From positions 124,001-188,000 of the forward strand of contig NZ_FNPF01000006.1 in assembly GCF_900107235.1 (NCBI RefSeq): a stretch of 64,000 nt of DNA, in the 5' to 3' direction. Position numbers and translations under genes: made by a program. Every line of letters starts with the position of its first letter. The stretch's first letter is position 1. Below the pieces are notes generated by a model. The model worked only from the letters and a program-made list of their open reading frames with translations. It ran no database searches and was not told where the DNA came from. This document shows, one piece after another, positions 55,746-60,841 of the stretch. The stretch comes from Citreimonas salinaria. GTDB taxonomy: Bacteria > Pseudomonadota > Alphaproteobacteria > Rhodobacterales > Rhodobacteraceae.

Positions 55746-56177
55746 TCAGAACACCCCGATCTCGGCCAGCGCGCCGGCCAGTTCGGGCGGCAGCGCGTCT
55801 TCGGCCTGCCGGTGCGCGGGCAGATCGCGCGGTGCGTCGGCAGGCGCAAGGTAGCGCCAGCCCTGAAACGGGCGGCGCGGCGCGGGCGTGGTGCGCACCA
55901 GCGCGGGGTCGAGCACGATGGCGCAGCGGCGGATGCCGTCCTGTCCCGTCACCTCCTCCAGCCGCAGGATGCGCTGGCGTGCCTGGACCAGCCCCTTGAT
56001 GACCCAGTAGATCGAGCCGCCGGCCTCGATCTCGGGCTGCTTTTTCGGCCACATCCGGGTGACGTGACGCGGCTTTCCATCCGAAAACCGCTTCGCGTGG
56101 CCGCTCTGCCACGCGATCAGTTGCTCGACACTTTCGGTGCCGGCGCTCAATTTCAGCAGATGGATGTGCTTATCCAC
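55746..56177 (-). CDS. DUF1489-family protein
   Basis: A 143-aa protein of the DUF1489 family, known mainly from alphaproteobacteria and of unknown function. It has HIHLLKLSAGTESVEQLIAW near the N-terminus, RHVTRMWPKKQPEIEAGGS in the middle, then IYWVIKGLVQARQRILRL, and a PRRPFQGWRYLAPADAP block. The start is uncertain: GTG at 56177 gives the expected family length, while GTG 56198 and TTG 56231 lie in frame upstream. It is divergent from nrdJ; the promoters must lie in the 120 bp between them. Confidence 0.82.
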   Translation of the reverse strand: MDKHIHLLKLSAGTESVEQLIAWQSGHAKRFSDGKPRHVTRMWPKKQPEIEAGGSIYWVIKGLVQARQRILRLEEVTGQDGIRRCAIVLDPALVRTTPAPRRPFQGWRYLAPADAPRDLPAHRQAEDALPPELAGALAEIGVF

Positions 56178-56297
56178 AGAATCCGTCCCGTTTCCCACGT
56201 CATATGGTAGCGGCCGCGACAGGCGCTTCAACCAGTTGTGGCGGCGCGCCGCTTTGCGCTAGATTGATCGCCTGCCGCAGCCAAGGAATCGATCGCC

Positions 56298-58802
56298 ATG
56301 TCACGCTTTGCCGCCCCCATCGCCGAACAGATATGGGACATGAAGTACCGTCTGAAAGAGGCGGACGGCACACCGATCGATCTTTCGGTCGAGGACAGCT
56401 GGCGCCGCATCGCCCGTGCGCTGGCGTCGGTCGAGGATGACGCGCCTGCGTGGGAGGAAAAGTTCTACGCCGCGCTGGAGGACTTCAAGTACCTGCCGGC
56501 CGGGCGCATCACTGCCGGCGCAGGCACCGACCGCAGCGTGACGCTGTTCAACTGCTTCGTGATGGGCACCGTGCCCGACACGATGGGCGGCATCTTCGAC
56601 ATGCTGAAAGAGGCCGCGCTCACCATGCAGCAGGGCGGCGGCATCGGCTACGATTTCAGCACCATCCGCCCGCGCGGCGCGGCCGTCCACGGCGTAGCGG
56701 CGGACGCGTCCGGCCCGCTGAGCTTCATGGATGTCTGGGACGCCATGTGTCGCACGATCATGTCGGCGGGCTCGCGCCGGGGCGCGATGATGGCGACAAT
56801 GCGCTGCGACCACCCGGACATCGAGGCGTTCATCGCCGCCAAGTCCGACAGCGCCCGGCTGCGCATGTTCAACCTGTCGGTGCTGGTGACCGACCCGTTC
56901 ATGGAGGCGGTGAAGGCGGACGGGCCGTGGGACCTGACCTTCGGCGGCAAGGTCTATCACACCGTGCAGGCGCGCGACTTGTGGAACCGCATCATGCAGG
57001 CGACCTACGATTACGCCGAGCCAGGTGTGATCTTCATCGACCGCATCAATCAGCAGAACAACCTGCACTACGCCGAGACCATCGCCGCGACCAACCCCTG
57101 CGGCGAGCAGCCCCTGCCGCCCTACGGCGCCTGCCTGCTGGGGTCGATCAACCTGGCCCGGCTGGTCGAGAACCCGTTCGAGGATGCCGCCGGCATCCCC
57201 GACGCCGCGCTCGACGATCTCGTCGCCACGGCCGTGCGGATGATGGACAACGTGGTCGATGCGTCTCGCTTCCCGCTGCCCCAGCAAGCCGAGGAGGCGC
57301 GCAACAAGCGCCGCATCGGGCTGGGCGTCACGGGCCTGGCCGATGCGCTTCTGATGATGGGCCTGCGCTACGGGTCCGAGGAGGCGGCCGCCAAGACCGG
57401 CGAGTGGCTGCGCCGCATCGCGCGGGCGTCCTACTTGGCCTCGGTCGAACTGGCGAAGGAGAAGGGACCTTTCCCCCTGTTCGAGGCCGAGCCGTTCCTC
57501 GCCTCGGGCATGATGCGCCGCATGGACGACGACGTGCGCGAGGCCGTGCGCACCCACGGCATCCGCAACGCCCTGCTGACCTCGATCGCGCCCACGGGGA
57601 CGATTTCGCTCTACGCCGGGAACGTCTCCTCGGGGATCGAGCCTGTCTTCGCCTACAGTTACACGCGCAAGGTGCTGCAGAAGGACGGATCGCGGACCGA
57701 GGAGGAGGTCGTCGACTACGCCGTCCAGATGTACCGCGAAAGATTCGGCCACGACGCCGACCTGCCCGACCATTTCGTCAACGCCCAGACGCTGGCGCCG
57801 CTGGACCACGTGCGCATGCAGGCAGCTGCCCAGCCGTGGGTCGACAGTTCGATCTCGAAGACGATCAACTGCCCCGAGGACATCTCGTTCGAGGCCTTCA
57901 AGAGCGTCTACCTCGAAGCCTACGAGACCGGCTGCAAGGGCTGCACGACCTACCGGCCGAACGACGTGACCGGGTCGGTGCTGAGCGTGTCGGAGGAGAA
58001 GCCGAAGGCCGACACGTTCGCGTCGTTCGGCGAAGCCTTGAAGTGGCGCATGGAGTCCACCGGGAAGTCGGTAGCCACTCTCTCCAAGGACGCCAACGTC
58101 TCCCGTGACGTGCTGAACAAGTTGCTCAAGCGCGCAGGAAGTTCGACGAGTGCGGAAAATGCGATGGCCATCGCGCAGGCTTTCGGAGTGACCGCCGAAA
58201 CGTTCCTGAGCAAGAGCATTTCGCCCGAACTCGTCGCCACCACCGACGCCGAGCCGCAGCAGCCGCACGGCGACGTGGTCTACATGTCCGAGCCGCTCGA
58301 ACGCCCGTCGGAACTCGAGGGAGCGACCTACAAGCTCAAGTGGCCCGACAGCGAGCACGCCATCTACCTGACGATCAACGACATCATCGTCGGCGGCCGC
58401 CGGCGCCCGTTCGAGGTGTTCATCAACTCCAAGAACATGGAACATTTCGCCTGGACCGTGGCGCTGACGCGCATGATCTCGGCCGTGTTCCGCCGCGGCG
58501 GCGACGTGTCCTTCGTGGTCGAGGAACTCAAGGCCGTGTTCGATCCCCGTGGCGGCGCTTGGGTGCAGGGCAAGTACATCCCCTCGATCCTTGCCGCGAT
58601 CGGCGGCGTGATCGAACGCCACATGATCGCGATCGGCTTCCTCGAGGGCGAGGGCAAGGGTCTCAAATCCGATCCCACCGCCCAGGTTGTCAACCTCGGC
58701 ACCCCCCGCGGCAGGGCCTGCCCCAGTTGCGGTCAGTTCGACCTGCAGATGGTCGAGGGTTGCATGACCTGCCTCAGTTGCGGACACAGCAAATGCGGTT
58801 AG
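56298..58802 (+). CDS. nrdJ: Adenosylcobalamin-dependent (class II) ribonucleotide reductase with embedded HTH domain
   Basis: NrdJ (834 aa) reduces ribonucleotides to deoxyribonucleotides using B12. The redox Cys86 is in TLFNCFVMG, the catalytic loop NPCGEQPLPPYG holds Asn266, Cys268 and Glu270, and LTSIAPTGTISLYAGNVSSG is the phosphate-binding loop. The C-terminal redox tail is CLSCGHSKCG with CPSCGQF before it. Between the barrel domain (ending GCKGCTTYRPNDVTGSVL) and the C-terminal domain (from HGDVVYMSEPL) sits an extra module of about 80 residues (570-655) that reads as an XRE-type helix-turn-helix. Related enzymes of about 750 aa have a short linker there. No ATP-cone is visible at the N-terminus. 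Confidence 0.95.
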   Translation: MSRFAAPIAEQIWDMKYRLKEADGTPIDLSVEDSWRRIARALASVEDDAPAWEEKFYAALEDFKYLPAGRITAGAGTDRSVTLFNCFVMGTVPDTMGGIFDMLKEAALTMQQGGGIGYDFSTIRPRGAAVHGVAADASGPLSFMDVWDAMCRTIMSAGSRRGAMMATMRCDHPDIEAFIAAKSDSARLRMFNLSVLVTDPFMEAVKADGPWDLTFGGKVYHTVQARDLWNRIMQATYDYAEPGVIFIDRINQQNNLHYAETIAATNPCGEQPLPPYGACLLGSINLARLVENPFEDAAGIPDAALDDLVATAVRMMDNVVDASRFPLPQQAEEARNKRRIGLGVTGLADALLMMGLRYGSEEAAAKTGEWLRRIARASYLASVELAKEKGPFPLFEAEPFLASGMMRRMDDDVREAVRTHGIRNALLTSIAPTGTISLYAGNVSSGIEPVFAYSYTRKVLQKDGSRTEEEVVDYAVQMYRERFGHDADLPDHFVNAQTLAPLDHVRMQAAAQPWVDSSISKTINCPEDISFEAFKSVYLEAYETGCKGCTTYRPNDVTGSVLSVSEEKPKADTFASFGEALKWRMESTGKSVATLSKDANVSRDVLNKLLKRAGSSTSAENAMAIAQAFGVTAETFLSKSISPELVATTDAEPQQPHGDVVYMSEPLERPSELEGATYKLKWPDSEHAIYLTINDIIVGGRRRPFEVFINSKNMEHFAWTVALTRMISAVFRRGGDVSFVVEELKAVFDPRGGAWVQGKYIPSILAAIGGVIERHMIAIGFLEGEGKGLKSDPTAQVVNLGTPRGRACPSCGQFDLQMVEGCMTCLSCGHSKCG
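58005..58262 (+). other. XRE-type helix-turn-helix domain inserted in NrdJ
   Basis: Residues about 573-645 of NrdJ read ALKWRMESTGKSVATLSKD, then ANVSRDVLNKLLKR, then ENAMAIAQAFGVTAETFL. This is the full five-helix order of Cro/CI (XRE) DNA-binding domains: a helix, turn, recognition helix and the A(I)A.A.GV...L closing motif. GC is about 60%, close to the host gene, so it is not a recent AT-rich insertion. There are no intein splice-site residues at its borders. Confidence 0.85.
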
Positions 58803-58975: not shown

Positions 58976-60841
58976 CTATGCAACAATCGCCTTGTCGGCA
59001 ACGTAGTGCCGGGTATCCCAGCGGCAGATAGTCTGACCCATGGCGCTGCGACTGAGCTCAACGACATTTAGTCGGTCGCCCGGAAAAGCAGGACTTAATT
59101 CCAGCGAGAGATAGTCGAACAGCGAGCGTTCATGGACAGCTATGATAACTTGACGTCCCATCTGCTTGGAAAGCGTGCGCAGCAAAGCTGCGAATTGCGC
59201 GATGTGAACCTCGTCCATGCTCTGGACTGGATCGTCGATCACCAGCCATGGCAGTTTTTCTTTAACCGAAAGATGTAGTGCCATGAACAGTGTCAGGGCT
59301 GCCGTATTAAGGTTGCCCGCGCTCAGCATAGCCCTCGGATTGCCTCCTTTTCCGCCGCGCCGGTGGTGCGTCTCGAGGACCGCCTCGACCTCGTCGCCCA
59401 CCGTCTCCGGAATCGCAAAGGCCGGTATGAAGGGTTCTTCTGGTGCAAGGCGAACGAATAAATCACGCCAAACGGTGTTCAATTCGTCATTGAATACGCG
59501 GCGAACAACGCGCCCGCGTGCTTCGCGTGTCTGCCGGGCGATATCCTTGGCAATGTTGATGATCTCGTCAGCTTCAGCTTTCTGGCTTTCCTTGAATGAC
59601 AAACGATTCTTGACTTTGCCTCGTTTGTTCCGGAGCCCGGTCAGTGTGTCGCGGGAAACAATGACGGCCTTCGCGGCGTTAATCGCTTCACGGCGAGCGG
59701 TCTGACGAGCGTTTAACGACAACTCTCTCTGAGTGATTGTCGTCATGAGGCTATAGAGGATTTGCTCTGTCGCCGTGGCGGACTCGAACTCGACGCCTAA
59801 TCGATAAGCCAAGTTTTTAACATTGCTGCGGAGCACGATCGCAGATCGATCAGAGGTTTGCGAAGCGACCAAGGCTTCCGCGGCATTCGCCGCATTCTGC
59901 CGATACCGATCGCCCTCCGTGAAGCTGGTCGCCGCTTCATCTAACTGGCTGCGAATATCGGTCAGGTCGGCCCAACGCGTCTTGAGAGCGGACAGTTCAA
60001 TTTCGGAGATCAGACCGCTCGTCGCTGCCTGAATTTCGCGTTCGAGCTGTGAAATGTTCCCCTGGGTATTGTTCCGAGACTGAAGCAGAGCTTGGACGCG
60101 CCCCGCTTGCTCAACCATGGTTGCGACTTTTGCGGCGACATGGGCGGATAGCGGTGTTTCGGAAACCTCTGAAAAGTCGCGATCGCAGACTGGACAGATA
60201 TCGCCGGCGACATGGGTCATTAGCTCGGAGAGAGATCTGGCAAATCTTTCATTGGACGCCGAAGCTGAAGTGATTTCTCTGTCCATCCGTTCTATGCGTG
60301 CTCTCGCCTCCGAAACCTGGCGCGACAGCGTATCGCGCTTTGCAATAGCCGCGTCATGGTTCGACAGAACACGTTGAATCCTTTCGCTATCTCCTTCGAT
60401 GCGGCCGATGAGCACCCGCGCCCGTTTACTGAAGCTCGCCTCGCTTGAATTTGACACGTCAGCGAAAAAGGTAGCTGCTCGATCAAGCAAGCCATTGACG
60501 GTCTGACCTTCTGTCCGAGCCCAAGTCTCGAAGGCGCTCGTCGCCTTCTCATTGGCTGCCTCGAGCTCAGCGCGGTCAAGAACTGTCGGCTCCTGCTGCT
60601 TGGCTGCATTCCAGCCAACTTGGCTGACTTCCAATTCGCGCCGCGCGCGGACCAGCTCGGCGAGATCGCTCTCTTCCGATATGGCGTTGAGAGCGGGGAC
60701 AATATAATCTGGATGACGACCAATTAAGTCCGGCTCGACTGCCGCGAGTGCCGTTTGCAGTATATCTTCATCCGTATTGAGCGCAGTTTCAGCCTCTTTG
60801 ATCTGAGAATGAAGCGCGGCAACTTCTGCTGACGGAGTTGT
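58976..60841 (-). pseudogene. 5'-truncated Rad50/SMC-like ATPase gene
   Basis: The open frame runs from a stop at 60842-60844 with no ATG, GTG or TTG until 60634, yet the upstream codons continue a coiled coil (AEVAALHSQIKEAETAL). The gene has therefore lost its 5' part, including the Walker A region. What remains (about 620 codons) has long coiled coils around a zinc-hook-like CPVC (60185-60196). An ABC-type head follows: signature MLSAGNLNTAALTLFMALHL, Walker B WLVIDDPVQSMDE and a switch His in VIIAVHERS. It resembles SbcC/Rad50-type ATPases of repair or anti-phage systems. GC is about 55%. It cannot hydrolyse ATP by itself as it stands. Confidence 0.75.

Follow-up and report, generated by a model that had tools for sequence, protein, structure and literature searches.

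The linker between the catalytic barrel and the redox tail of NrdJ, a class II ribonucleotide reductase (RNR), is a cassette site in Rhodobacteraceae. The site is either empty or, as in many marine members of the family, holds one helix-turn-helix (HTH) domain of the XRE type, and once it holds two. Comparison of the nrdJ genes shows that cassettes come, go and are exchanged for others in a gene whose remainder is inherited. The HTH domain of the Citreimonas salinaria enzyme, from which the analysis started, is thus a hypervariable, exchanged cassette, which the view from a single genome had missed. The cassette is carried by what is probably the sole aerobic RNR.

NrdJ of Citreimonas salinaria

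The gene nrdJ lies at nt 56298..58802 (+) of the window, the whole stretch of 64,000 nucleotides that was analysed. It encodes a protein of 834 residues, which is by sequence a class II (adenosylcobalamin-dependent) RNR. The open reading frame is uninterrupted, and its translation matches the NCBIfam model TIGR02504 (NrdJ_Z) with E 2.5e-176 and 587.8 bits against a cut-off of 400. The initial annotation had described the catalytic motifs as intact, and this proved right: NPCGE with C268, C86 and C279 are present, together with the C-terminal cysteines. In the NrdJ family alignment the columns of C86, C268 and C279 are invariant, and the tail cysteines are near-invariant.

The RNR N-terminal all-alpha domain covers residues 8–79 (nt 56319..56534, +; Pfam PF00317, E 1e-12) and the catalytic barrel residues 85–552 (nt 56550..57953, +; PF02867, E 2.3e-128). 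The barrel matches the T. maritima class II RNR structure 1xje with E 3e-86. A flexible linker of residues 557–576 (nt 57966..58025, +) leads to the XRE/Cro-CI HTH domain, residues 577–639 (nt 58026..58214, +), and a second flexible linker of residues 640–670 (..SPELVATTDAEPQQPHGDVVYMSEPL..; nt 58215..58307, +) follows. The 'PHGDV' part of the second linker is also found in HTH-less relatives in the alignments. The C-terminal region consists of a TSCPD domain, residues 678–776 (nt 58329..58625, +; PF12637, E 8.2e-11), and a cysteine-rich redox tail, residues 808–833 (CPSCG...CMTCLSCGHSKC; nt 58719..58796, +). We equate the TSCPD domain with what PMC9669993 calls the 'IscU-like' part of the C-terminal redox region; the tail, recognized from its sequence, agrees with the CRD of PMC5704485. 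The barrel, the IscU-like/TSCPD part, the zinc-finger CRD and the position of the linker are thus those of the long-C-terminus class II RNRs (PMC9669993, PMC5704485), from which the present NrdJ differs by an extra XRE domain in the linker that varies between species.

A class I NrdB was found in 4 of 38 genomes (2 of 20 with the HTH, 2 of 18 without) and not in the host. With NrdB undetected there and in 33 of 37 further genomes, NrdJ probably serves as the main, and usually the only, aerobic RNR. The possibility that NrdJ is a spare RNR was rejected, because NrdB is missing in most genomes, HTH-bearing and HTH-less alike.

The HTH domain in the linker

The domain was proposed from the sequence of the window alone, with a domain search and a structure prediction as checks, and both bear it out. 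HTH_3 of Pfam matches residues 581–634. In the whole protein the match has E 2.3e-4 and 21.6 bits, just below the curated cut-off of 23.0, and on the excised segment it rises above the cut-off with E 1.6e-5 and 25.3 bits. An AlphaFold2 model of NrdJ, built on an alignment of 49 sequences, displays five helices at residues 577–588, 592–599, 603–611, 619–628 and 633–636, with pLDDT about 77–91. The third helix (residues 603–611, RDVLNKLLK; nt 58104..58130, +) is the predicted recognition helix. On both sides of the domain, at residues 557–571 and 641–670, pLDDT falls below 50. The excised HTH model resembles P22 c2, SinR, DdrO, CapH and C.BclI in the PDB (Foldseek best E 1.6e-3, probability 1.0), and a sequence profile of the domain retrieves SinR, DdrO and the 434 and P22 repressors. 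The enzymes HppE and HEPD are also among both the fold and the sequence matches. A chance match is excluded, since 50 of 55 such linkers match HTH_3.

The extent of the domain had been given as nt 58005–58262. This is right to within a few residues for the cassette, which spans about residues 569–641 (nt 58002–58220), the start near residue 569 being set by DNA alignments of empty and filled relatives. The remainder, nt 58221–58262, is linker that is also found in HTH-less enzymes of the same linker class. The proposed alignment across relatives places the insertion in one linker, which is short in the others; the relatives of about 750–760 residues carry a short linker at the insertion site, as had been stated for related NrdJ.

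Two other identities for the insert were considered. It is not a phage repressor of the S24/CI kind, as the HTH is followed by linker and the TSCPD/CRD part with no S24 peptidase-like domain. An intein or homing element was rejected because the insert is about 70 residues long and holds the HTH domain only.

Distribution of the cassette

Among 395 Rhodobacteraceae genera, each represented by one genome, a strong NrdJ match was found in 346, and in 40 of them the full 834 residues were matched. A linker of HTH length was extracted from all 40. Reading of linkers added two further carriers (G157 and G269), and G009, with an HTH ahead of a broken reading frame, makes one more. The HTH domain occurs at this one site of NrdJ in at least 43 of the 346 genera, a lower bound, as unread genomes may hold cassettes with no alignment to the query. 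HTH-bearing nrdJ genes are present in the single-contig assemblies G140 and G180; named isolates that carry one include Pseudooceanicola batsensis HTCC2597 and Roseovarius nubinhibens ISM. In the class sample of Alphaproteobacteria outside Rhodobacteraceae, no NrdJ gave a full-length alignment; the linkers that were read are rich in Pro, Ala and Gln and hold no HTH.

Two loci depart from the common arrangement. L067 (G157:C21) has a single NrdJ linker with two tandem HTHs of different subtypes. In L026 (G009:C3:466943-469500) the HTH is present and the nrdJ frame is then broken into a 740-residue frame ending in the linker and a 240-residue frame with the redox domain, which may reflect a frameshift, an assembly error or a natural split into two subunits.

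Viral NrdJ proteins were read by eye at 54 loci, a few of them unreadable, and no XRE-HTH-like linker was seen among the readable ones. A phage origin of the whole nrdJ gene was rejected on this ground. L186 and L201 carry other inserts of about 100 residues in the same linker, which are not HTH-like. The viral NrdJ of L188, L189, L192-L194, L197-L200, L205, L206, L221, L222 and L224 are without a TSCPD/CRD part; a short tail with two cysteines forms their end, e.g. GGACELKYDxxTGQLIRSCE.

In another alphaproteobacterial family, the NrdJ linker of L257 (G672:C38) repeats a unit of about 20 residues several times almost perfectly (APAPARERSPDINLPAPLFE). The NrdJ matches in G008:C2, G098:C1, G076:C101 and L223-L226 are interrupted at about residues 266–271, inside the NPCGE finger loop; most have open frames of 1063–1191 residues, and they look like intein-like insertions at the catalytic cysteine.

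HTH subtypes at one site

Every insert has the same place, with ...TTYRPNxVTGSVLSVxEEK before it and ...PHGDVxYMSEPLDRP, or an equivalent, after it. There are 56 distinct linkers of more than 100 residues, and the match of 50 of the 55 scanned to HTH_3 holds at E 0.01 or better. Ten linkers that were judged divergent or odd all match HTH_3 on re-scan. All of the inserts read are XRE HTHs, and the site was not seen to hold any other kind of domain in Rhodobacteraceae, which argues for selection for the XRE fold.

BLAST sorts the trimmed HTH domains into three large groups and five singletons, and at 45% identity they make up eight subtypes with at least two members; the HTH of the window belongs to the subtype 'STSAEN'. 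Most groups average about +1 to +2 in net charge. The 'KPTNRD' subtype is acidic: its net charge averages about -4 and ranges from -1 to -6; two singletons have charges of -6 and -3. Their acidity makes this subtype and the two singletons poor candidates for DNA binding, and some cassettes may do without any DNA binding.

Within subtypes dN/dS is 0.10–0.28 where dS is unsaturated (Nei-Gojobori; many pairs are saturated), which points to purifying selection on the HTH. Identity between subtypes is lowest in the recognition helix, at 0.11 against 0.14–0.34 elsewhere in the domain, and within subtypes the helix reaches 0.59. Helices 2 and 3 are more conserved than helices 1 and 4 within subtypes in only five of the eight. 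The pattern of the recognition helix is what would be expected if the subtypes differ in DNA specificity, which is not proof that they do.

Separate histories of core and cassette

Over 55 genes (1485 pairs) the mean identity is 82.6% for the NrdJ core and 24.8% for the HTH, with a Spearman correlation of 0.09 between the two. The most similar cores (0.90–0.93) bear HTHs that are only 13–40% identical, and the most similar HTHs (73–80%) are borne by cores of 80–86%. In the pair L006/L078 the 300 nt ahead of the linker are 96.0% identical, the 300 nt behind it 89.3% and the HTHs 24%. The pairs L034/L036 and L041/L080 likewise have sister cores with different HTH subtypes.

On a FastTree tree of 136 cores the HTH state changes 35 times, against a mean of 43 for shuffled states; the exact number is soft, and at least 14 changes are forced by well-supported branches. 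The filled and empty relatives L077/L141 and L079/L096 align cleanly at the junctions, and the genes of Puniceibacterium confluentis (L077) and P. sediminis (L141) differ by a single in-frame block. In the genus of G031, which its similarity to L140 places in the Ruegeria pomeroyi group, the HTH is present in one of five species. G031 and L232 have a linker that is different throughout in a core of 94.7–94.8% nucleotide identity. Such a difference confined to the linker would be left by short-tract replacement through recombination with another nrdJ allele, and it suggests, if indirectly, that the cassette is spread by recombination. As presence or absence differs among close relatives, the HTH domain is dispensable to the enzyme.

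The base composition of the insert also sets it apart. In the 55 genes GC3 is 0.60 for the insert against 0.83 for the core, and it is lower in the insert in 51 of the 55, with a median z of -7 relative to windows of the same length in the gene. In the NrdJ of the window GC3 is 0.80 for the HTH and 0.92 for the barrel. The initial annotation had taken the GC of the domain to be close to that of the gene and had read from it an established feature. The first does not hold, as the composition deviates, and the second is not supported, as the insert is often gained, lost or replaced.

Origin of the cassettes

The 'STSAEN' subtype of the window was found only in NrdJ among the 61 genomes searched, and the thresholds used gave no relative of it in phages or plasmids. 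The 'RYSNW' subtype gave nine matches in 296 genomes, all in frames of NrdJ length. Matches of 'LNATAVYDIL' outside NrdJ are in proteins of 151–278 residues, measured from stop to stop, and by eye the majority of them resemble CI/S24-type repressors. Phage matches to two subtypes are for the most part distant CI, S24 or other XRE regulators by annotation. Two subtypes other than that of the window have no close stand-alone relatives in viral contigs. Recent capture from stand-alone repressors does not account for these data, since two subtypes are without a close stand-alone relative in the genomes searched and the stand-alone relatives of two further subtypes are distant, at 36–47%.

From these matches we infer that the HTH fold was derived from repressor-type proteins, and most of the present cassette diversity seems to circulate inside nrdJ. 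Subtypes that are seemingly confined to NrdJ stay AT-shifted too.

Possible functions of the cassette

Ribonucleotide reductases of the NrdJ kind in class II act as dimers. The best explanation, which we hold tentatively and at less than even confidence, is that the cassette provides a dimeric RNR with subtype-specific DNA recognition directed at targets other than the nrdJ promoter. Homologous recombination between nrdJ alleles would spread the cassettes via the conserved flanks. The dimeric enzyme would display paired HTHs on flexible tethers, and the pairs would bind DNA sites specific to the subtype, by which the RNR may be brought to DNA or the sites blocked. These sites would lie elsewhere than in the nrdJ promoter. 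One may speculate from the turnover of the cassettes that the targets are fast-changing, for example sites of mobile elements or prophages.

It is also conceivable, although rather unlikely, that the XRE domain is a non-specific DNA tether that keeps the RNR at the nucleoid or the replication fork for local delivery of dNTPs. Any DNA-binding HTH would then suffice, and the subtypes would be interchangeable and drift apart, which accounts for the XRE-only inserts and the free swapping and fits the weakly positive charge (about +1 to +2 on average) of most subtypes. However, conservation of the recognition helix within subtypes would be needless for loose binding, acidic subtypes exist, and most genera have no HTH.

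The acidic subtypes fit a structural or oligomerisation module that does not bind DNA, the HTH fold serving as a spacer or a self-association domain that tunes class II tetramers and hexamers. HppE and HEPD, in which XRE-like domains are parts of an enzyme, are among the matches, and the redox tail of class II RNRs has a part in oligomerisation (PMC5704485). Under such a module, which we consider unlikely, every enzyme lineage should keep its interface, yet sister enzymes bear unrelated HTHs, and the long flexible tethers on both sides in the model do not suggest a fixed place.

If the favoured DNA-recognition cassette were aimed at phage, prophage or mobile-element operators, NrdJ, as an abundant dimeric RNR, would carry host-owned repressor domains of the immunity type, derived from repressors of such elements and exchanged between species under their changing pressure. 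This is quite unlikely; with no phage or plasmid relative for the subtype of the window at the thresholds used, and none in viral contigs for two others, the searches give no direct support to a phage-related target.

A near-neutral passenger is quite improbable too: HTHs from repressor genes would occasionally arrive in a tolerant linker and be kept without a function of their own. The patchy presence even between close relatives and the foreign base composition agree with this. The exclusive use of XRE domains, the dN/dS of 0.10–0.28, the occurrence of subtypes in divergent cores and the two subtypes seen solely in NrdJ in the genomes searched do not.

RNR genes are often under tight regulation, and a domain of the repressor type could let NrdJ repress its own gene, the target that had first been proposed. 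The similarity of nrdJ upstream regions goes with the core gene (0.16, p 0.03), whereas its partial rank correlation with the HTH type is -0.02 (p 0.69; partial Mantel), dyads are in no excess upstream of HTH genes over HTH-less genes, and the promoter of the HTH-bearing G031 is nearly identical to that of its HTH-less relative L140. Similarity was scored as shared 7-mers over 200 nt, which a short operator could escape, so the result weakens autoregulation and is no disproof of it. Binding of NrdJ to its own promoter, in the manner of the PutA/BirA type of autoregulatory enzyme, is thus very unlikely, as no operator tracking the HTH type appears there by 7-mers or dyads.

Regulation of a neighbouring gene was rejected: genomes with and without the HTH all vary on the 3′ side of nrdJ, and the scanned neighbours, which are unrelated in kind, indicate no partner. 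Upstream, L077-L156 often have hisZ-hisG and a conserved convergent gene (named by sequence reading), and the genes downstream are different in nearly every genome. In the window, the next gene 3′ of nrdJ (nt 58976-60634, -) encodes an SMC/AAA-type ATPase with a best E of 1.2e-27 to LmuB (Lamassu) of PADLOC, possibly part of a defence system in this genome. The upstream region of nrdJ in the window has a DnaA-box-like TTATCCACA at nt 56170-56178 (+), and Rfam gave no match to an RNA element at the gene. The 8-mer TTATCCAC occurs in 38 of 134 nrdJ upstream regions, with a recurrent ATATTGTAG element; both are unrelated to the HTH state.

Relation to known systems and implications

Enzymes that bear an HTH are already known. 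PutA, BirA and NadR are metabolic enzymes with a fixed HTH that regulates their own pathway; they share with NrdJ the union of enzyme and HTH in one polypeptide, whereas the HTH of NrdJ is interchangeable and its own promoter is an unlikely target. The phosphonate enzymes HppE and HEPD also hold an XRE fold within an enzyme. Their XRE-like domain is fixed, whereas that of NrdJ is tethered and hypervariable. CI/S24-type repressors and XRE regulators (P22 c2, 434 CI, SinR, DdrO, CapH) have the five-helix XRE fold in common with the NrdJ HTH, which differs in having no S24 or regulatory partner domain and in being embedded in an enzyme of the essential type. The target-recognition domains of HsdS and the immunity regions of phages have conserved flanks around a highly diverged, swappable specificity part, and in this arrangement of an interchangeable, diverged part between conserved flanks they resemble the NrdJ cassette.

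To our knowledge, a swappable specificity cassette in a core biosynthetic enzyme has never been described, and as far as we know the interchangeable HTH in a core enzyme is new. No description of an HTH in NrdJ was found in the open-licence papers searched. The words HTH, helix-turn-helix and DNA-binding are absent from the main text of a 2022 survey of RNR insertions and extensions (PMC9669993).

The near-identical pairs of enzymes with and without the cassette allow a clean comparison, and Rhodobacteraceae are culturable. Few enzymes are as conserved and essential as ribonucleotide reductase. An exchange site for DNA-binding domains within it, with the histories of core and cassette uncoupled, is unexpected from anything described for RNR. 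If the HTHs bind specific DNA, either dNTP synthesis would be targeted to DNA sites or a core enzyme would double as a changeable repressor. Should the operator-binding reading be true, sequence-specific defence or control of mobile elements would reside inside an essential metabolic enzyme.
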